Shown here in pieces: positions 6,131-43,300 of a DNA stretch of 64,000 nucleotides. The stretch is taken from assembly GCA_031213475.1 (NCBI GenBank), contig JARUPZ010000002.1, forward strand, positions 16,845,069 through 16,909,068, read 5' to 3'. The notes beneath the pieces are model-generated. The model was not told the origin of the DNA. It searched no databases and was given only the letters and a program-made list of their open reading frames with translations. Every line of letters starts with the position of its first letter. Position 1 is the stretch's first letter. The translations under genes and the position numbers were made by a program. Source of the stretch: Nereocystis luetkeana (lineage: Eukaryota > Sar > Phaeophyceae > Laminariales > Laminariaceae).

Positions 6131-9100
6131 TCACGAGTTGCTCTTCGCCTTCTTGGCAGTATCACCCCCCGTGGCCTCCGCTTCCTGCCCCCCCCCGCAC
6201 CCTGCCCCTACCCCGTTCGCCGTGGCCGCGGCCACCTTGATCGGGGCCACCTTCGGCGTTGGCCTTCCCTTTCGCTTCACGACCATCACGTTCGCTGCTG
6301 GTGCGCCTGCTGCGCCCCCCCCAATCCCGGAAGAAGAAAACGAAGTCGAAGAGGCGCCGAACCCTCCACCGGCGGTACCTTCCGAGCTGCCAAATCCTGG
6401 AAACCCCGGCGCTCCTGCAGTTCCTGATGGCGCGCCAAAGCCAATGGTAGTAACCTCTCCGGCGCCACTGCTTTCCGAGGCAGCCCCCGCTCCCCCCCCG
6501 TCTCCGCCCCCAAGCGAAGATGAAGCCGATGCGTCCCCGAAGCCGACGGTTGTTGACACGGCACCGCTCTTGTACTCGGCCAGGGCTTCCATGTCCTTGC
6601 CGCTGACCATGGTGTCGATCGTCTCGCGGATGGCGTCCAAAACGTCTTGAAGCTCCTCCGCCGATCCGCTGGCGAGGGAAGCGGGGGCGGCGGCAGCAGC
6701 GGCCGGAGGTTCTTCGCCGGATTCTTGCCCTCTACCTTTGCCTTTGCCCTTGCCCTTGGAGGTTTCGCTGGACGATTCCGCGCTGTCCTCGCCGTTGTTC
6801 TCTTTGCCGGGGGAAACGCACGGTGTCGGCGTTGGCGTTGCAGCCGGCGGCGGCGCGCTCAACGACGAGAGCATGGCCTCGAAGATTCCCGCCGCTAGAC
6901 GGTACTGTTCGAGCGACAGGGCCACCATCGCATCCTTTTTTTTTTCGGGGGGGGGGGTTAGGGGACGGGCAGTGGGGCGGCAGGGGCGGATGCGTTATCA
7001 TTGATTACGATTTCCGACAGAAAAAAAGTACCGGGTAGTGAGGAAATAAAAAGAAGCATTGCTGGGCGAAAAACAAAACAAAGGACCGTCGACCTCAAGA
7101 AACGCAACCGATTCTAAATGAACGTATACCTGGTAAATGACACTCGGTGTATGAAAAACCTACACCAACCCATTTTTTGAAACACAAGGGACAAACGAAC
7201 GAAAAGGAGATACACGAACTTGTCTTGAGACCCATGTCAACACACGTCTGAAAACACAACAAAGGGAACGAGCATGGGGGATAGGAACGTGTCTTGTCGA
7301 CAGCACGAGCGTGTATGTATGCAGCATGCGTGAGGCGTGCTGCGATACGGGTAAAATGTACCTTTTTGTCTACAACGATAGGGGTACTGTGCCTTTTTTG
7401 GCCTACATGCTTTCGCTTCGACCGTACAATAGGACAAGCCTAAATCGTTGGAAATACAATTCGTGCTCTACTACACGAAGATTCGAACCCGTGTCCTCGA
7501 CGACGTCAAATGTGAGGGCGTTGCCTACTGAGCTATATATAGGGGCGAAAGATCGATCGGTTACCCAGCCCAGGGTAAGCCTTATAACATAAGTTCACCA
7601 CACCTGTTTTCAAGGTACGTGCCGTGTGTCAAGTTGTTTAGGGATGGCGCTACAACAAGGTTCTACGAGGCTTGCTGACATTGGGTGTTTCTCGTTGGCC
7701 GGCCTACACTGCAATCAAGTGTATTGTTTAGACGGGATTGAGTGTTCATCGGCTTAACCCGTTTAGAACTGCAGTCCCGTCGTATTGGGGACAAACCAGT
7801 CAAATTCCAAGTAGTTTGTGCAAAAAACGGGACTGCAGTGCTAAAAGGGTCAATTTTTCATCTGATCAAAATCTGTTTTCTGGTGACTTCCGCAGGCGCG
7901 GAGCCTTGTCAATAAGTGTATATAGGTCTAACCCAACCTCGTAGCGCACGTCGCGTGTACCAGGTACCAGGTATAAAAAAAAGCGACAGCACTCGCCCAC
8001 CTTGTCAGCGCCCTCGAGCGTCGACGCGTAGAACAAGGCCTGCGCCCGGCGTACGTGCGCGTCGGCCACGCCTCGAGACACCGGGCACGGCATGGCTAAG
8101 CGGTGCTGCAGGCACTTGTCGAACTCGTCGGCGGCCTCGTTGTACATACCGTTCACCATGTTCAAATCGCCCAGTCGGAGGTGGACCTGTTGTCGCGTCA
8201 AGCGACCGAGGTCGATGGGGGTAGGGCGAGATTTGGGGCAGGGGGGGGGGGGGCGACATGAGCTTCGCTGTTGGGGGTTCGATCAGCACACGGGGTCTCG
8301 TGAACATAGGTGATACGGTTACACACAAATAATACAATACCTGTTACTACTATTGATAACACGGGGTTTCACTAACACGACCACGAGGGTCACTACTAAC
8401 GGGATATGAGTGCTGTAGGTCGCAAACTACTGTTGGAGTTCATAGAGAGCAGTAATATAACGTAATATCATCGTGTGCCGATTGTACCAGGGGTACGAAA
8501 AATAGGACGTACCAGGTACGTGCGTACCTTACGTACACACCAGAGCACAGCAGAGTCTACAAGTTGGTACGAGGTTTATGACAATCGCGCAGCGTCATGA
8601 ACGCATGAACCCCGGTATACCAGGTACCTCGTACAGAGAACAGCATTCGTCCATACGTCCATACTACAAGAACGTCCCAGGCAGTGCATCGCGCTTCCAT
8701 GGTGAACAACAGACGTCTCATCACCGGATGAACCCCTTCATCCGTTTTCGAACACAAACAAGCTGCGCGTACGTTCGTACGATACCACCCCGCTGGTTTA
8801 TCATACCTGGCACGTAAACCAGGTATCAAAGGACAGCAGTCAGTACAATATGCAAGTGTACAAGCAGTACAATGCTCACATGACTGCTGTACGATAAGAC
8901 GTACTCGTAAAGCAGAATTCTACCTTCATCAGCAGTAATTGCTGCTGTAGTAGTGTTCGTGGACCGTGGACAACAATGCTTCGAGGTCGCTGGTGTACGG
9001 TCTTATCCGTCGCTCGAGCCAACAACAACAGCAAACAGGCCCAGCCCACAACTACTCGCAACCCCGTCTTTCTCGCACACCTTGCCGATGGCGACTCGAA

Positions 9101-9614
9101 TCTCCTCTGTCAGCTCCAGCTCGCTGTAAATCCTGCGCGCCATCTCGAGGTTTTCCCAGGCAATCTCCAGGTCTTCCTCAGCCTCCTGGTCTGGCGAAGG
9201 TGCGGCGCCAGCGCCGGCGTCTCCGTCTCCATCTTCAGGGGCGGCTCCCGCCTCTCCCGCGGCGGCGCCCCCGTCCGAGGCTCCACTACCTCCATTCTCG
9301 CTTGCCCCATGGAGCTGGGCGTCTACGATGGCCATGGCCTTCTTCTTCTCGACCTCGGTGATCGCGTCACCGAACACGGCGCCTGATTCCTCGGCGTTGT
9401 ACAGCAGCGAATTTCCGTACTCGTAGTAGAGGGGGGCGAGGGCGGGGCACATCTCGTTTCCGCTGAGGACAGCGACGCGGGTCTCGAGGAGGCCGCTGAA
9501 AAAGTTGACCGCCTCTTCGAGCCGGCCATCATCAATGAGCTTGCGCCCGGCCTTGTACTGGGGGTCCGCGAGCGTGGCCGCCACGGTGTGCTCCTCTTTA
9601 TTGTCCGACGACAT
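6131..9614 (-). CDS. NASP: NASP/Sim3-family histone H3 chaperone with SHNi-TPR repeats
   Basis: Three exons on the minus strand, 9614-9081, 8186-8001 and 6934-6131, join in phase 0 (1524 nt, 507 residues). NASP proteins bind histone H3 (H3-H4) in the nucleus through TPR motifs, one of them interrupted by an acidic stretch. Visible: TPR1 at about residues 13-80 (ADPQYKAGRKLI...YYEYGNSLL), an acidic Gly/Asp/Glu insert at about 105-145, then the resumed helix EEDLEIAWENLEMAR, a second repeat VHLRLGDLNMVNGMYNEAADEF in halves across the first junction, and a third (MVALSLEQYRLAAGIFEAM). The C-terminus has the family-typical TTVGFG element and basic KRKGRP and KKAK nuclear signals. The start MSSDNKEE was chosen at 9614 because the 24 codons upstream are unlike the family. 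The last acceptor is unusual: A-rich sequence instead of a pyrimidine tract. The 5' end faces the eIF4B-like gene. Confidence 0.87.
7461..7569 (-). repeat. tRNA-derived SINE-like sequence or tRNA pseudogene in NASP intron 2
   Basis: On the minus strand a good box A (TAGCTCAGTAGGCAA) is followed by box B (GGGTTCGAATC) at tRNA spacing, but the anticodon stem does not pair well and no clean acceptor stem is visible. A 16-base leader, GGGTAACCGATCGATC, precedes it and recurs with two changes before the copy at 37321. This fits a dispersed tRNA-derived element rather than a working tRNA gene. Confidence 0.6.
7758..7849. mobile_element. piggyBac-like palindromic MITE (copy 1)
   Basis: A 92-bp hairpin element in NASP intron 2 begins CCCGTTTAGAACTGCAG and ends CTGCAGTGCTAAAAGGG. 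It is flanked by TTAA at 7754-7757 and TCAA at 7850-7853, consistent with a TTAA target duplication that has mutated on one side. Confidence 0.85.
8228..8253. repeat. Poly-G tract in NASP intron 1
   Basis: A run of about 12 G near 8241-8252 lies close to the second NASP exon. Read on the minus strand it is poly-C upstream of the acceptor at 8187, so it probably acts as a pyrimidine tract. Confidence 0.6.
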
Positions 9615-10114
9615 GCTGCTGCTATGGGGAGGTTGCCCTGAAATGGTGCAAGGGAGTGACGCTGCCCTGATGTGAGGCAATGTCAACGTCGCTTGCTTGC
9701 TCTAAGTTTTTCGTCTCCCCTCAACAAGTACGCTGCTGTGCTTGCCCCCTCCGTCGCTGCTATGGTTTCTATCTTGATATCCCAGAGCGTGGAAGGTTCA
9801 GCAACCCTCTATTGTCGTTGGTTTCCGCTAACGTCTGGTGCTAACGAACTCCAACGTCGAAGGGGGCAGGTTTTTGAAAAAGGAGGAAGTGAGGGTGCCT
9901 GCCTGGCGCCACCCGTCGGGGTGAAAATATTTGAAAAAACATACAGCCCCCCTTTGAAAATGCTTCAAGGTCATGAAAACCCCTGATGCAGAGTGGGTGG
10001 AGGGGCATAACCAGAAGACATTCAAAAATTGAATTTGGAAGGCAAGGCACCCGCCCCTCGTTCTCCGCACCAAAACTTCACCACTCGCACCACCGAGTGC
10101 AGGCTTCTGCTATC
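9615..10114. promoter_or_regulatory. Shared divergent promoter between NASP and the eIF4B-like gene
   Basis: Only 500 bp separate the two start codons (9614 on minus, 10115 on plus), and no other exon or repeat is visible between them. Both 5' UTRs and promoters must lie here. I see no clear TATA box at a fitting distance. The pairing of a histone chaperone with a translation factor on one bidirectional promoter suggests joint expression in growing cells, which is inference. Confidence 0.55.
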
Positions 10115-13100
10115 ATGGCGAAGAAAGGAGCTGTGAAGATGGGATTAGCTGACTTCCTGGGCCCGAAAGCCGCTAACGCGTCGCAGTCGGTCAAAGGGCA
10201 TATGCTTCCCTCCGGCCCCGACCCGAACAGAGAGTGAGTGTACACAGCGACTTTGGGGGGTAGAGACGACTTTTTTGTTGTGGGAGCTTGCGTTCCCTCT
10301 GTCCTTGGTGCGGGGCATGCTTACGTTCGCCGATGTTGACGTGTCCACGCGGCAAGCGCTCTCACCGGGTAATTTTTTCGGACGTCTAACCACGACCGCT
10401 GATTGAGGCCGTACGTCTGCGTGGTGCGTGTTCCGTAAAAAAATGTACTTTTATGATACTCCTCTCACACAGAAGCAGCAGTGTGCGTGGTGCGTAAGCA
10501 ACGTCGACGTCTCCACGTCCGGCATAATTGCTGGTGCTGCTGCTGCCTTGTCCTGCTGCCGCTGCCGCATGGGGTCGACGGGCCCATGTGGCGCGCTGAT
10601 GAGTTGCCCCTTCGCTTGTGGCCAACGCGTCGCCCCACTGCCGATATAACAACTAAAGCCTCACAGGGCTCAGCAGAGCGGGCGACCGCCTACGATGAAT
10701 TTTCTCGAAAAATACATTTGATACGAGTACCTCCTGGTATGATACGAGTTGACGCAAAACGTGCACACACCGACACTTTTTTGTTTTCCACATTTTTTCA
10801 ATTGTTCGAGTTCTTTCGAGTGTGGCAGGTGGTACGAACGAAAATCGACCGTTTTGGTCTCCTCTTCACGAAAATGGGTCGTGCCCGAGGTGCATTTTCA
10901 TTAACATCCTGGTGTTGCCAACTGAGACGGGCCTCCCTCGTCCGGTTTCCCCTTCCCCCCTCCCTGCCCTATCCCCTATTCGGTTATTGTACGCGGCTGA
11001 CCTGTCTTGTACTCTATTAATGACAGAAAACTTCAACAAACCAAACCCCCTCCCCCCCCCGAATTCCGTCTCCCGTAATCCCGCAACTTCTCTGCCTGTA
11101 CGACCTTTTCTTCCTTTCCTCCCTTTCATCCTCTCACCCCCCCTCCCCCGCTCTCCCGCTGTAACCCTCTTGCTCATTTGATGCAATCGGGTGGGTGGGT
11201 GGGTGGGTGGTTGGGTGGGTGGGTGGGAGATTGCGATCGATATCACTCGTGCTGTCTCTCTACCCATTATGCTTCTGCCGTCGATTCTCCCGATACTACC
11301 ACTGCTGCTCCTGTTGCTTCTGCTGTCGCTACTACTGCCCATAATCTCTACCAGTGCCTGCCCGATGTGTGCTGCTGTGCTGCTGCTACTACTGTGCCCG
11401 AATTTGCATATTACTTCCCCTGGAACCCCCTCCCTCCCGTTTTCTCCTATATTTCCTTCTCCGATCAGCTTAAGTCGTAGTTCCAGATTGTTTTCACGTT
11501 TTTCCATATTGTCCCATCCGCGTCCCAATGTTATGATTCTTTAACGTTTTTCGTCCCGTCTTCTCGTAAATACGGTCTTCGTCCTGTTTCGACTCTTTTC
11601 CACACCATCGTGAGTAATCGTATTTGAGTGCGTTTTTTGCTCATAATGCCCTGTTTTCTGTTTTCTGTTGTCCGACGTGCCGTGCTGTCCGTCCGGCCTG
11701 CCTGTTCACCTAATTTTCACCGGCCTGCAAAAAAATGAAAATAAAAAATCAGCCCCGATGAGCGCCGCGGTCCTGGAGGACGTCGCTTCGACGACGACTA
11801 TGACGGCCCCGGTGCCCGTGCAGACGGCGCAGACCAGTGGAGGCGAGGACCCGGGGCTGGCGGCGGCGGTGGTGGCATGGAGGAGCGCCGTGGCGGCGGG
11901 TACGACCACGAACGCGGAAGCATGGCTCCCGAGGACGGAACATGGCGCAGCCGTGCCCCCCCTCCCCGTCAGCAGGGCGGTGGGGGTTTCGACCGCGATG
12001 GAGGCGGTGGTGGTGGTGGTAACCGCATGGGCGGAGGTGGGGGCTTCGGAGGAGACCGCGATCGCGACGGCAGAGGCATGGGCGGCGGCGGTGGCGGCGG
12101 TTTCGACGAACGTCGCAGTGGTCCCGGAAGGGACAGCGGTTACGACAACCCTCCGGCCTCGACCAAAGAGCGCATTCGCCTCCCGCTGAAGGGTCGCACG
12201 CTTGCCCTGCCCGAGCAGCCCGCCGTGCCTGTAGCGACCGAACAGAAGGCGCCGGCCCCGGCCGCGAAGCCGAAGCCGTCGGGACCCAGATCGAACCCTT
12301 TCGGCGCTGCCAGCGCCGTCGACACCACCCAGCGGGACCTGGAGATCGAGGCCAAGGCTGAGGCCGCCCGGCTAAACACCCTGCGCCGCCGGGACGAGAC
12401 GATCCGCTCGAGCAAGCCGGCCTCCGCTGCCGTGGATGACGCCGGTGGCGGGGGGGGAAACACTGCGGCCGAGCAATCAGGAGCCCCCGCCGGAGCGGAA
12501 GAAGAGGATGGCCCGGGGTCTCCCACTACGGTCACGGTTGCGAATGGCGATGGCGGCGGTCGAAAAGGACACGACGCGGCGGATGATGGTTCTCCCATTG
12601 CGCCGAAGGCGGAGCCGGCCAAGCCCTTGGGCAGATGGGCGGCCCTCCGGCGGGAGGGGGGGGGGGGAGGAGACGACAGAGCGCCCCCCGCCCAGCGCAG
12701 GGATCGCGACGATGACCGCAGGGGTGGCGGAGGCGGAGGGTTCGACGGTCGCGGCGGCGGCCGGGACGAGAGGTCGTCCTTCGGGAGACGGAACGACGGC
12801 GACTCTGCCGGCGGCGGTGGGGGCGGAGCGGGAGGGTTTGGCGGCGGCGGCCGCATGGAGCGCGAGCCCTTCCAGCCCCCAGCCCCTCCGGCGGGGAACG
12901 CGTTCGCCAAGCGCTTCGGCTCCAACGACCGCGAAACGGACCGATCATTCCCTCGACCCCGGGCCGGAGGTATGGGAGGAGGCATGGGCGGCGGCGGGTA
13001 TGAACGCAGTAACGATGACCGACGTGGAGGCATGGGCGGGGGGATGGGCATGGGTGGTGGCTCCGACCGGTGGGATGACGACAGGCGCGGCAGCGGCGGC

Positions 13101-14322
13101 GGCGGTGGTTACGACCGCAGGGACGAGGGCCGCGGCGGGTCGGGAGGCGGGGGAGGAGGTATGCCGATGGGCGGGTCGAGGTTCAGGAGGGAAGACGACG
13201 GAGGTTCTCAGCGCCAATATGGCTCGGGAAGCGCAGAAGGGCGCCCCGCCCTCAACATCAGGCCAGCCGGTGGCAGCTCGGGTGCGACATCGTCACCGCC
13301 GTCCTCCCTGTCGAAGATGTCCATGAAGGCTACCAATCAGGCGGCGCCTGTGGTTGAGGCCGAAGCTGCCGCCGCCCCGGAGCCGGAACCGGAGGTCGAG
13401 CCGACGCCGGAACCGGAACCGGAGCCGGAAGAGCCCAAGGAGGACCCGGTCGAGGTGGCGCGATTGTCTGCGGCCGAGGCACTAGCGAGCGGTAAGCGCG
13501 GAACGGAGCTCAAAGAGTTCGTCATGGCGCAGGAGAAACGCACGACCGCGGGAACCCTGCTGGCGGCCGTGCTGGCGGGCACGGAGAGCCCCCAGGACAT
13601 GAAGTGGTCGGAGAAGGGGGAGTTTGGGCCGGCGCTGACCGCGCTGTCTGGTGGCAGCACGGAGAAGCAGATGGAGATTATCTACTCGGCGGTGGCCAAG
13701 TGCAATGCGATGGGCTTCCCGAAGGACGCCGGGGTGGCGGTGGTGCAGACGATGTTCATGGGCATGTACAACTGCGACCTCTGCGAGGAAGAGGCTTTCA
13801 TCGAGTGGAAGGTAGGGGTGCTGTTGTGTTGTTCTTTAGCTCGGGGCGCTTTATATTTATTGTTTTCGTCCGTGTTTGCGCGCAAGGGTTCTTGCGGTGG
13901 GTGCAACATTATTTTGCCGTCACGCTGTCATCCCACCACCCGCCCAGCAGCGACAAACAATTCCTATTTTTTTTTCATTCGATTTTTGTCGTGCTGCACA
14001 GTCGGTCGGTCTGTCCTTCGCTACATAGCCGCCGTCTGTTTTCTTTTCTTCTCTTTGCCGATGGTGGTGGTCATTTCGAATGGCCGATTCTCATGTTTTT
14101 TGTTTTTATTTTCGTGTGTCGCCGGAACATTTAATGAGGCGGAGAACTATCGCCCCCCATCCCCTCCTCTCCATCCATCGCCAACTCCATTTTTTGCCTC
14201 ACTCGTGTTCGCAGGACGACGTGGACAACCCGGCGGAAGGCCGCATGAAGGCCGTCATGCAGACGACCCCCTGGTTCTTATGGCTGGAGTCGGTCGACGA
14301 GGAGGAGGACGAGGAAGACTGA
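10115..14322 (+). CDS. eIF4B-like translation factor with C-terminal W2 domain
   Basis: Exons 10115-10233, 11753-13811 and 14215-14322 join in phase (2286 nt, 761 residues). The first exon encodes MAKKGAVKMGLADFLG, like the KKGK..SLTDFLA start of animal eIF4B, a cofactor of the eIF4A helicase. Next come an RGG/GG-rich stretch (about 40-130), the block RIRLPLKGRTLALPE (about 177), SNPFGAA (about 217, typical of eIF4B repeats), further Gly/Arg/Asp-rich RNA-binding-type sequence to about 520, a RPALNIRP motif, and a Glu/Pro linker (582-604). Residues about 605-761 form a complete W2 (eIF5C) HEAT domain with both aromatic/acidic boxes: EEEAFIEWKDD split by the last intron, and PWFLWLESVDEEEDEED at the end. 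No RRM or MIF4G domain is seen. The 1.5-kb first intron is T-rich with a GGGT repeat. Confidence 0.85.
11189..11227. repeat. (GGGT)n repeat in eIF4B-like intron 1
   Basis: Nine or so GGGT units with one TTGGGT interruption lie on the transcribed sense strand of the intron. Such runs can fold into G-quadruplexes in RNA and DNA. Confidence 0.85.
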
Positions 14323-37300: not shown

Positions 37301-40300
37301 ATGTTATAAGGACTTCCCTGGGCCGGGTAATCGATCGGTCGTTTACCCCTATAGCTCAGTAGGTAACACCAGAAAATCAGCAACCATTCTTCCCTGCCCA
37401 AGTAGGCAACATGGTGTGTGTGCCCACGTAGGGCACGCATTACCCCGTCCAAAGAGGATACTTTAGACATATTCCCGGGGTGTAATTTGACAAACCTGAC
37501 TGTTACGGGGGACCATAGTAAATAGGACCAAATATTGTTAGTAAAAATAAGGAAATATATAGGTTTTTGTCAGTACCGTAGGTCCTATTTACTATTCCCC
37601 CCTCCTACCGTAAAATAGCGCTGGACATTCCTAAGGGGAGTAATCTGATAAGACTGCCCAACGTCGGCAACATATTTTTCTCGCCTACATCTCATAGGCA
37701 ACATATTCTCCCTGCCTGATATCATAGACTACATATTTTTCCCGCCCACATAGGTAGGCCATACATTATCCTCCCCGGGGGTACTTCGATATGACACGCA
37801 GGCAAATGGGCGTTCCCTCGCCTACACTCGTAGTAACTATCAAGTACATATCACAGGCGGCATGTTTTCCCTGCTTAGATGTAGGCCAAACATTTCCCCC
37901 TCCTACGGGTACAGTTTTAGTCTTTCCCGGTGGTAGTCTGATACACCTGCCTGTTACTACAGCAGGTGGGCAATGTATTTTCCCTGCGTATCTGGGCAAT
38001 GTATCCTCCCTGCCCAAAGCAGGCCGCACGTTTTCCTCGCTACAGGGCTCTAAAGCGTAGACGTTTACGGGGGGCAATCTGACAAGCCTGCCTTCGGAGG
38101 CAACACTTCGTCCCTGCGTGTACATAGGCAACACGTCCTCCCTATCGACGTAGGCCATACCAAGTGTATTTTGCGCGCCGACGGGGAAAGTTCAGAAATG
38201 CCCCCGGGGGGTCGAACCTTAACGTTTCGTTGGCGTAGGGTTAGGGCCAGGGCTATTACGGGCGACCATATTAAATAGGACCTACGGTAAACACAAAACC
38301 GTATACAATTCTCTATTTTCACCAGCAATATTTGGTCCTATTAACTATGGTCCCCCGTAATGGAAGGCAGATACCGCACGCCCCCAGGGAGAGGCGGAAA
38401 ACATACCCAGTCGTCAGGCCGTCCGTAATCAACACAATAAAACAACAAACACACAAAACTGCTGTTGGTCATAGTATATACATGTATAGATATTCGCCGA
38501 AAAGCGCTCGTGCGAAGAGATATTTCCGAAAAAGTACAAATTTTTCACAAACATAACTATTACGGGGGACCATAGTTAATAGGACCAAATATTGTTAGTA
38601 GAAATGGTTAAATAGTCAAGTTAATAAGACCAAATATTGTTAGTAGAAATGGTTAAATATATAGGTTTTTATGTATACCACAGGTCCTATTAACTATGGC
38701 CCCCCGTAATATTAGTATGCGCTATCATATGGAGTCCCTACTTTCGTAGAGTTCCAAAGGTCCCCAGTGATGTGGTAGCTTTGACCTGCTATCGAAGGCT
38801 GTACGTGTCCTTTGTTATAGTTAGGGTAAGGAGAGAGCCCTCCACATTGGTTTAACAGCGTGGAGACGAGAGAGATCGAGGGAGGTTCGGACGGGCAAAC
38901 AAGGCCCGTCTCGACTTCAAGGAGGCTCGGGTTGTCAAGTCGAGTTCTCCCGGTTCTCGGAAAGATTCTCCGATGTAATACCACTCCTGGTGTATCTTCC
39001 GTGGGTGCATGAGCGATGACCGTTCCACGAATCTTTCCCAAAACCGCTCCTCCACAATTAAGAGTGACCAACTAATATCATCTTCCCCTTCCCCCCCCCC
39101 CCGATCGTCCTACAAGCACGACCTGCTCGTATAGTGCGCAGTTTTCGGAGTCGAAATCGGTGGGTTCGGTGACGAACGAAACATGTTACCCAAGTTTGAT
39201 GTTATTTTGTCGTTGCTGCCGCTACTGTAATTAATACCGGTATGTGAATTTGTATTTGTACTAAAACAAACACCTGTTTTTGGCTTCCAAGTGGCCAGTT
39301 TCCCTTGGAAATCTCAGAAATTGCATGCCTCCATCCAACCTCAAATATGAACACCTCGGGAAACCAGACCATTTCGCATTCATTGACTTGCGCTGCATTT
39401 AAAGCACTTGAAACAGGTAATGTAAATATGGCTAACACCGTTACGCGTATCTCCGACGCATATAGAACGGACTACCGTTTTTAGCGGTCATGCGTTAGGG
39501 CGATATGACAACAACACAAGCGGCAACACCCACAACACTACCACTACCGCTACCACCGCCACCACCACCACCAACGCTAACACCATCTCCGCCACCAACA
39601 ACACCGCCATGACCAATACCAGCACCATCACCAACACCAACAATACCTGCCCAGAGAACAGCGGAGATCCCCTCACGCGGGCGTGGCACACCCCGCAAGC
39701 CGGCATCGCGTGACGAGGGAGATGGGGCGTCGACGTGAGCCTTTCCGAGGCGGCACCGGTGGTACCACTTGAAGGGGCGGCGGCGGTGACGGCGGCGGCG
39801 GCGGTAGCGGCGGCAGACCTAAGCCTTCCCGATACACCGGTAGTACTGCCTACTGGGGCGGCGGCGGCGGCAGCTGCAGCAGCAGCGGAAGATGCAAGCC
39901 ATTCCAACGCGCTGGTAGTACCGCTTACAGCGGCGGCGGCGGCGGCGCTCGCAGTTGTGGCGGCAGAGGTAAGCCTCCCCGGCGCACCGGCTGTACCACT
40001 TACTGGGGCGGCGGCAGTCGCGGTAGCGGCGGCAGATGCAAGCCTTTCCGACGCGCCGCTAGTACCGCCTACGGGGGCAGCGGCGGCGGCGGTAGCTGCA
40101 GCGGTAGCGGCGGCAGACGCAAGCCTTTCCGACGCGCTGGTAGTATCGCCTGCAGGGGCAGCGGCGCCGGCGGTTGCGGTAGTGGCGGCAGAGGCAAGCC
40201 TTTCCGACGCACCGGTAGCACCAATTCCACAGGCGGCGGCGAGGGCGGCGGCGGCGGTCGAAGTAGTGGCGGCAGGCGCAAGGCTTCCCGGCGCACCGGA

Positions 40301-43300
40301 AGTACCACCCGCGGGGGCGGCGGCGGCGGCGGCGGTAGCGGTAGCGGCGGCAGGCGCAAGCCTTCGCGACGCACAGGTAGTGCAGCCCACCGCGGCGGTG
40401 GGGACGGCGGGGGCAGCGGTGTCGGCGGAAGCAACCAACTCAGCCCCGTAGATACTCAAAGGCTTCGCGGTCTTCAAGAAGAACTCCCGAAACTCCGACC
40501 TCCCGGTGTTCCGATCGGTCCGGTACATCCCCAGCGACCTCTCTGTCCGGGGGTTATCGCTTTCCCGCAGAGCGTCGACGACCTTCCGGGCTACGCGCGC
40601 CGGGTCGGTCATGTGGAACACCTCGTGCTTGTGGTGAGGGTGTCGGAACGCCACCCTGAGGCCGGAGTAGTCGTAGTCGGTTTCGTCGCCCCGATCTTGA
40701 AAAGTTTCCGTCCCTCCGTACAGCTGGAAGTGACGGCTGCATGACATGCTTTCGAAGTACACGGAGAAGCACACCAAACGAGGAGAGCGCACCGCACAGC
40801 AGTGGGGGGGGGGGGGACAGGGGGTGAGAAAAAGAGGGTGAAACATTATTTCCGGATACAAAAACGAGGGAAAAAAACACACTAACCTGTAAGAGTGGAT
40901 GGGGGCGGTGGGATTGATGGGCCAATCGCGTGCGACTTGTGTGAGACACGCTGGACACACTCACCATCACCCTCACCACCAAAAAAGAGAGCGAACATGC
41001 GGTCGCACAAAAAACGCACCCCCCTAACCAACCAATCGACCAAAATCGATTAGTCGACCAAGCGATCGATCCACCAATCGAACTTCGTCGAGGCATCACA
41101 GCAAATAATCGAAATTCGTCGAGGTATCACTGCGACCGATCGAACTTCGTCGAGGTATCACAGGGGCCAACCGGAACTCGTCGAGGCATTACAAGCACCA
41201 CTCAAACTTCGCCGAGGCATCACAGTGACCGTCGTTTTTTTTTTTTTTTCCCGTGGGTATTATTACGCTGTCTCCTTGGTTTCGGTTGCGACTCGTACAG
41301 TATAGTGTATATCATACGTATCCGATACGTACGTATTCTCACAATACTCGTTATTTTTGTCTGAGGCATACGATTTGTTTCTGTCACTACGGTACTGCTG
41401 TGTTACTGCTGTGTTACAGCAGCATTCTTGTGTGTATCATTTTTTTTGTTTTTATTTTTCCCTCCTCGGGGGCAATATATATATTCCACTCCAGAGTTAT
41501 TGGAGCCTGTCCTGTGACCACAGACCGTATTGTGTCGTTGCGTTAATGTGAGAACAACAACACAATTCAAATGGTGATCAGTCGAAGTTCGTTGAGGCCG
41601 TCACAGCGACCAATTGAAATTAAACAAGGCAGCACAGCGGACACTCAAAACTCGTCGAGTAATCACAGCGACCAATCAAAACTCGTCGAGGTAATACAGC
41701 GACCAGTCGAAACACGACGAGGGATCACAGCGACCAATCACGCTTCGTCGAGGTATCACAGCGACCAATTACAAGTTGTCGAGGTTATCTATTAATAAGT
41801 GACCAATCAAAATCCGTCGGGGTATCACAGCAGACAATCGACAATCATGGAGTCTCATCACTGTGAGAATAGTCGAAAATCGTGGAGGCATCAGGGCGTC
41901 CAGCCGAAGATCGTTGAGGAAATCATAGCGACCAACCGAAACATGTCGAGAGATCATAGCGATCAATCAAAACTCGTCGAGGTATCATAGTGACCAACCG
42001 AAACTCGTCGAGGTATCACAAGCGACCAATCGATCTCTGTCGAGGTCATCACAACAACCAGTCGAAAATCGCTGAGGTTTTCATGGAGGACCAATCGACG
42101 TCATCCAGTATCACAGCGACCAATTTGAACTTCGTCCATTCATCACAGCGACCAATCGAAATTCGTCGAGGCATCAGAGCGACCAATCGAATTCCGTCGA
42201 GGTTATCACAGCAACCGGTCGAAAGCCAAGCCACGCAACTCACTTTTCCACATCCCCGCCGCTCACAGCGGCGATGACATCAAAGATAACGTGCTCGTGC
42301 GGCGAAGCTAGCTCTCGCAGCACTGTCGTCAGCATCCTATGGATGTAGTCGGCGGTGAGGGAGGAAACGGCCCCTCGATAGGCGATGAAGTTGTACTCGG
42401 GGTTTCCAGTGCTAACGAAGCGCGCCTATATATCACGGTCAGGGTGGGTCAGGGTGGCAAGGGGGGGGGGGGGGGGCAAGGGCGGGGGGAGGGGTCAGGG
42501 GAAATATAAATAGAGGCAGCCTCAGAATCGGATGGTCGCATACTTTTTCTTTTCTCCGGCGAGTATCGCACACACATGACCAATCCAGAAGAGTTGTTTA
42601 TGAAGCCTCGATAAAAAAAGCACACACACGAAACACGAAACACGAAAAACACCAAAAAAGTAACACAAATCTGAAACACAAACCAAAAGCAATAAAAAAA
42701 AACAACGCAACTAAAATAATAAAAGGCGGCACAAATGGGGGCCGAGGGGGGAGGGGGGGTGGTGGGCCGTCACCTCCATCTATTGAATCGTGATCACTCC
42801 ACCCGACATGCCTCCTGGGCCAGTGTCAAGACCCCCCTGACCACCAAAAACACACACACGCACACACACAAAAAAGAAACAATATCACAAGACGCAAAAC
42901 ACGAACGATTTAGTCTACAAATTGCGGAACAAAAGAGGGGGGAGGAGGGATAATCTCCCCCGATCAATGGCGCGGCGATCTCGCGCCCCAGCATGACTAC
43001 GTGGCCCTTCGTCAGGACCGCCCCCCCCCCCTTCAGGCGATTCGTCGCGCGGCGGGTTGACAAAGGAGTCCGTCTCCCACAAGAGAACAAAAGAACAAAA
43101 GACAAACCACAAACCACGAAACAAAACAAAAACACACACACAAAATCACAACACCACCCCAAAACACCTACTAAAGTACATGAACACCAAAGCACCAAAA
43201 CACGCAAGAACAATCACGAAAAAAACATGCAGTCCGTACCAGGTAAAAAACAAATTGTGGCGTAAATGGGGGCGGGGGGGGGGGGGGATCACTCGCCTCG

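Follow-up and report, generated by a model that had tools for sequence, protein, structure and literature searches.

A predicted eIF4B-type gene with a C-terminal W2 domain in the kelp Nereocystis luetkeana, with counterparts in brown algae and a more distant group

Here we report a predicted gene of the kelp Nereocystis luetkeana (Phaeophyceae: Laminariales) that combines landmarks of the translation initiation factor eIF4B with a complete C-terminal W2 domain. The gene lies on the plus strand at positions 10115–14322 of the window, a stretch of 64,000 nucleotides (assembly GCA_031213475.1, contig JARUPZ010000002.1, positions 16,845,069 to 16,909,068) located on contig C2 of the 465-Mb genome. 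eIF4B is a helicase cofactor, and yeast and animals differ in how it is tied to the preinitiation complex; W2 domains are docking modules that bring initiation factors into contact with eIF2, eIF1 and kinases.

The gene is predicted to consist of three exons (10115–10233, 11753–13811 and 14215–14322), which join into a frame of 762 codons including the stop and encode 761 residues. Both introns (10234–11752 and 13812–14214) are bounded by GT-AG, and the phases are consistent across the junctions; an earlier note, made from the letters of this stretch, had proposed such a phase-consistent three-exon gene, and its coordinates, phases and junctions all stand. Exon 1 contains the start codon and the eIF4B-type N-terminus (residues 1–40, with the final codon split) and was placed by frame, GT donor and motif rank. 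Exon 2, uninterrupted by any stop, encodes a Gly/Arg/Asp-rich body together with both the eIF4B box and the opening half of W2, and exon 3 supplies the end of W2 and the stop codon. Intron 2 is independently backed by relatives taken from 20 proteins that bear this W2 (P0001–P0020): it occupies the identical codon position in all ten unspliced open reading frames (ORFs; P0002–P0011), which read EWK-V with GT directly after the same lysine, and the spliced NCBI relatives P0001 (Laminaria digitata) and P0012 (Ectocarpus sp.) read EWK-DDVD, matching the window gene. A search of the genome with P0001 (E ≤ 0.001; 74 of 107 candidates scored) matched exon 2 (89% identical), exon 3 (92% identical) and no third place, and the nuclear gene therefore appears to be single-copy.

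The Pfam family W2 (PF02020) matched the joined protein with E = 8.8e-15 (residues 679–760; 55 bits against a cut-off of 30) over profile positions 2–79 of 79, and the separate exon halves matched complementary parts of the profile (positions 2–45, E = 1.5e-4; positions 49–79, E = 1.2e-3). The first part of the W2 region (residues 605–726, 13446–13811) carries aromatic/acidic box 1 at 13767–13811 (YNCDLCEEEAFIEWK) and its end (residues 727–761, 14215–14322) carries box 2 at 14263–14319 (TTPWFLWLESVDEEEDEED), so that both boxes are present. A predicted structural model matches W2 structures and has the W2 HEAT fold. Among solved chains, the W2 profile scored eIF4G2 highest (1.8e-13), followed by eIF4G1 (4.8e-8), eIF5 (5.4e-6) and eIF2B-epsilon (1.2e-4); its nearest counterparts by sequence are the W2 domains of eIF4G2/DAP5 and eIF4G1, those of eIF5 and eIF2B-epsilon being more remote. 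Along the 3d3m alignment, E718 (in CEEEAFIEW) was counted as aligned with E862 of DAP5; the position is Glu in the brown-algal relatives and Asp in the P0013 group. Directly before W2 lies a Pro/Glu repeat (PEPEPEVEPTPEPEPEPEEP, 13362–13450), which is retained in the brown-algal relatives; P0013–P0019 have an Ala/Lys/Glu-rich stretch in its place.

The eIF4B part was recognised by three landmarks that follow the usual order. The N-terminal motif MGLADFLGP (residues 9–17, 10139–10165) ranked first by gapless score among the 96,375 windows of nine residues that a six-frame translation offers without a stop (15.6 bits, next 13.8) and was reached by none of 1000 shuffles. It is followed by a box, ERIRLPLKGRT...SNPFGAASAVDTTQRDLEIEAK (residues 179–258, 12168–12407), corresponding to the RPxLNLKPRS...FGGAKPVDT box of eIF4B. 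A profile of this box, built from 16 animal and fungal proteins of eIF4B type that carry an RRM (eight of them named eIF4B), matched the window protein with 30.5 bits and E = 8.9e-8 (calculated for a nominal 5000 sequences); no other of the 1429 window ORFs scored better than E = 0.51, and 2000 shuffles reached 0.79 at best. Profiles restricted to fungi (E = 8.1e-7; next ORF 4.2, best shuffle 0.15) or to animals (E = 6.7e-4; next ORF 1.5, best shuffle 1.5) likewise placed it first among window ORFs. The third landmark, PPAPPAGNAFAKR (residues 415–427, 12876–12914), resembles the PAPPPKENAWAKR stretch of eIF4B and was the top-scoring of 85,450 13-mers (13.5 bits against 12.2; reached by 3 of 1000 shuffles). 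Since these motifs exceed chance, the eIF4B part is considered real, and by its N-terminal DFL motif, as scored without gaps, and its box the protein would belong to eIF4B in the broad sense.

Several observations weigh against this assignment. With a hidden Markov model (HMM) of the N-terminus, a weaker indication than the gapless score, the exon-1 ORF came first of 1429 but with E = 1.1, and the joined protein was unmatched. Exon 1, inferred from frame, splice sites and motif alone, is the least firmly established part of the gene, and none of the relatives in hand has a counterpart of it; the PAPPPKENAWAKR-like stretch was not seen in P0013 or P0015.

At E ≤ 1, the eIF4B part of the joined protein matched no Pfam family, the plant-type eIF4B family PF06273 included, and no RRM (PF00076) was found in the joined protein. 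Sub-threshold matches to Trypan_PARP (0.018) and SPESP1 (0.25) both fell in the Pro/Glu-rich stretch. No RRM concealed in intron 1 or at its edges emerged either: of the 44 ORFs listed there for the two strands, 10 on the plus strand were tested, giving two other matches at chance level (0.078 and 0.13). Because no RRM was found, the protein is not filed under the animal/fungal-type eIF4B.

Box and W2 sequence occur together in one ORF in nine of the 20 relatives (P0001–P0007, P0013 and P0015), seven of which are brown-algal or brown-algal-like and two of which come from a more distant group. The remaining 11, mostly short C-terminal pieces of 97–355 residues, lack the box, and in P0002–P0007 the ORF enters intron 2, where W2 is cut. 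P0001–P0012 are regarded as brown algal, two by name (Laminaria digitata, Ectocarpus sp.) and the others by similarity; P0013–P0020 form a second group, 30–38% identical to P0001. In this group, P0013 and P0015 unite a near-animal eIF4B box with the same W2; the single ORF of P0013 reads RPRLNLKPRSAPKE...SSLFGGAKPVDTAAREAEV and ends its W2 with QTTPWFLWLE. Searched against 5.8 billion sequences, an alignment of P0013 with the L. digitata protein retrieved named animal eIF4Bs, the best at E = 1.4e-4. On this evidence, brown algae and a second, more distant group have conserved the fusion of eIF4B-type sequence with W2. None of the relatives bore the name of a diatom or an oomycete, in a search that needs shared 5-residue words and returned mostly nameless matches, so that absence from these groups is not established; three scans of viral contigs and one of genome contigs returned no relative.

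The other claims of the earlier note fared equally well. The eIF4B-type part is upheld by the rank of MGLADFLGP and by the box profile, the complete W2 by the span of PF02020 and the two retained boxes, and a profile search did find W2 within residues 605–761. The union of eIF4B-type sequence and complete W2 in one gene is supported by the Pfam match, the box profile and the nine relatives, and the same fusion, for which the note had suggested looking in other brown algae, was encountered as a one-ORF combination in L. digitata and similar relatives.

With the eIF4Bs of animals and fungi (fish, Periplaneta, S. pombe) the algal protein shares, in matching sequence along the chain, the DFL-type N-terminus, the Gly/Arg/Asp-rich body, the box and the PAPPPKENAWAKR-like stretch, but the precomputed domains of those proteins include PF00076 and lack W2. 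Its W2 is nearest to the C-terminal domains of eIF4G2/DAP5 and eIF4G1, whereas no MIF4G or MA3 match was obtained at E ≤ 1. It differs from eIF5, eIF2B-epsilon and 5MP/BZW in having no match to PF01873 (the eIF5/eIF2B N-terminal domain) or MA3 at this threshold, nor to any further non-W2 domain typical of eIF5 or eIF2B-epsilon, and the W2 sequences of eIF5 and eIF2B-epsilon score lower against the algal profile than those of eIF4G2 and eIF4G1. Plant eIF4G is without W2 (PMC3352336), and according to a review eIF4B has not been identified in dinoflagellates (PMC12787238); RRM-less forms like the kelp protein could go overlooked in such surveys. An eIF4B-W2 fusion was not described in the literature titles and abstract openings searched, a coverage that excludes most subscription papers, and the protein apparently represents a conserved, not previously described domain architecture of a known factor.

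The same genome encodes a separate, eIF5-type W2 (L001) with 17 of 60 residues identical to the W2 of the window, and recent copying from the tail of the alga's eIF5 was rejected as the origin of the window W2 on these grounds. The S. pombe eIF4B (P0041) hit the genome at 10 places (E ≤ 1), nine overlapping the RRM of the query and one covering query residues 229–287; the two places read were another RRM protein (L013) and a sequence without eIF4B motif (L021). This query missed the window gene as well, so a second eIF4B is not excluded by it. The eIF4G of the alga lies on contig C35 (L008–L010, about 518.7–541 kb) and comprises iso4G-like LRPGG repeats and pieces of MIF4G and MA3, the MA3 piece being sub-threshold (0.093) and the exon choice there guessed. 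It ends in a W2-like piece, also sub-threshold (E = 0.023; 15.2 bits, cut-off 30), in which the second aromatic/acidic box is not recognisable.

Sequence comparison establishes the gene model (exon 1 least firmly), the ordered eIF4B landmarks, the complete W2 and the conservation of the fusion. We consider it probable that the protein is an RRM-less eIF4B-type factor with an eIF4G/DAP5-type W2 tail that attaches it to the preinitiation complex, eIF2-beta being the likeliest contact. In yeast eIF4B the RRM is dispensable and the N-terminal domain and repeats bind the 40S subunit (PMC8762332); the N-terminus and Gly/Arg-rich body of the algal protein would act in the same way, touching 40S and RNA and supporting eIF4A. 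The tail, by its acidic boxes, would keep the factor bound to the preinitiation complex, in all likelihood through the basic tail of eIF2-beta, and mRNA unwinding and preinitiation-complex binding would be united in one chain. DAP5 requires E862 to associate with eIF2-beta (PMC4402527), and eIF2-beta is the first candidate partner because this residue aligns with E718, kept as Glu or Asp. A more specific proposal, in which the link between helicase and preinitiation complex moved from eIF4G to eIF4B, which took an eIF4G-type W2 and so contacts eIF2-beta in place of eIF4G, is possible but doubtful: the alga's eIF4G has no more than a faint W2-like end, which allows such a takeover of the W2 role without demonstrating it, and relocation is not accepted as shown.

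Other functions of the tail have to be weighed against docking via eIF2-beta. It is unlikely that W2 serves, in the manner of 5MP/BZW, as a decoy or regulator, competing with eIF5 for eIF2-beta and tuning start-codon choice. The W2 domains of eIF5, eIF2B-epsilon, 5MP/BZW and eIF4G are homologous (PMC9467303) and both acidic boxes are retained, as this explanation would have it, but the sequence is nearer to the eIF4G type than to eIF5, and attachment to a helicase cofactor suggests a local, productive role. Rather improbable is a tail that serves chiefly as a kinase docking site; the third HEAT domain of animal eIF4G binds Mnk (PMC3850090) and the algal W2 is eIF4G-like, yet the nearest W2, that of DAP5, associates with eIF2-beta (PMC4402527). 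That the protein is not an eIF4B but an RNA-binding protein of low complexity, rich in Gly/Arg, or a stripped-down relative of DAP5, with a chance resemblance to eIF4B, would agree with the lack of an RRM match, the marked Gly/Arg bias and the eIF4G-type W2; we regard it as very improbable, given a box profile score well beyond shuffles and other ORFs, the near-animal box of P0013 and P0015, and the failure of MIF4G and MA3 to match at E ≤ 1. An artefact of wrong splicing that joins two adjacent genes is hardly credible and was rejected: exon 1 is short and lacks support from relatives, but box and half of W2 share one exon, nine of the 20 relatives concur in one ORF, and P0013 and P0015 run to the end of W2 without stop or intron.

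That such a fusion exists in nature, maintained both by brown algae and by a second, more distant group, suggests cooperation between the two activities and gives a hint that mRNA unwinding is coupled more directly to the small-ribosome complex. The fusion offers a single protein for testing the tie of eIF4B to the preinitiation complex, and shows that the domain wiring of initiation factors is not uniform across eukaryotes.

Elsewhere in the window, a 490-codon ORF on the minus strand (39488–40960), the second longest among those listed, had no Pfam match at E ≤ 0.01. A divergent neighbour on the minus strand (7866–9701) has its first ATG at 9614, at a distance of 501 bases from the start of the eIF4B gene, and one exon with sub-threshold matches to TPR_2 (3.1e-4) and SHNi-TPR (0.0019); it is perhaps a NASP-type histone chaperone that has its promoter region in common with the eIF4B gene. 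An ORF on the plus strand (1370–2209) matches dihydrouridine synthase (PF01207, E = 1.2e-13).
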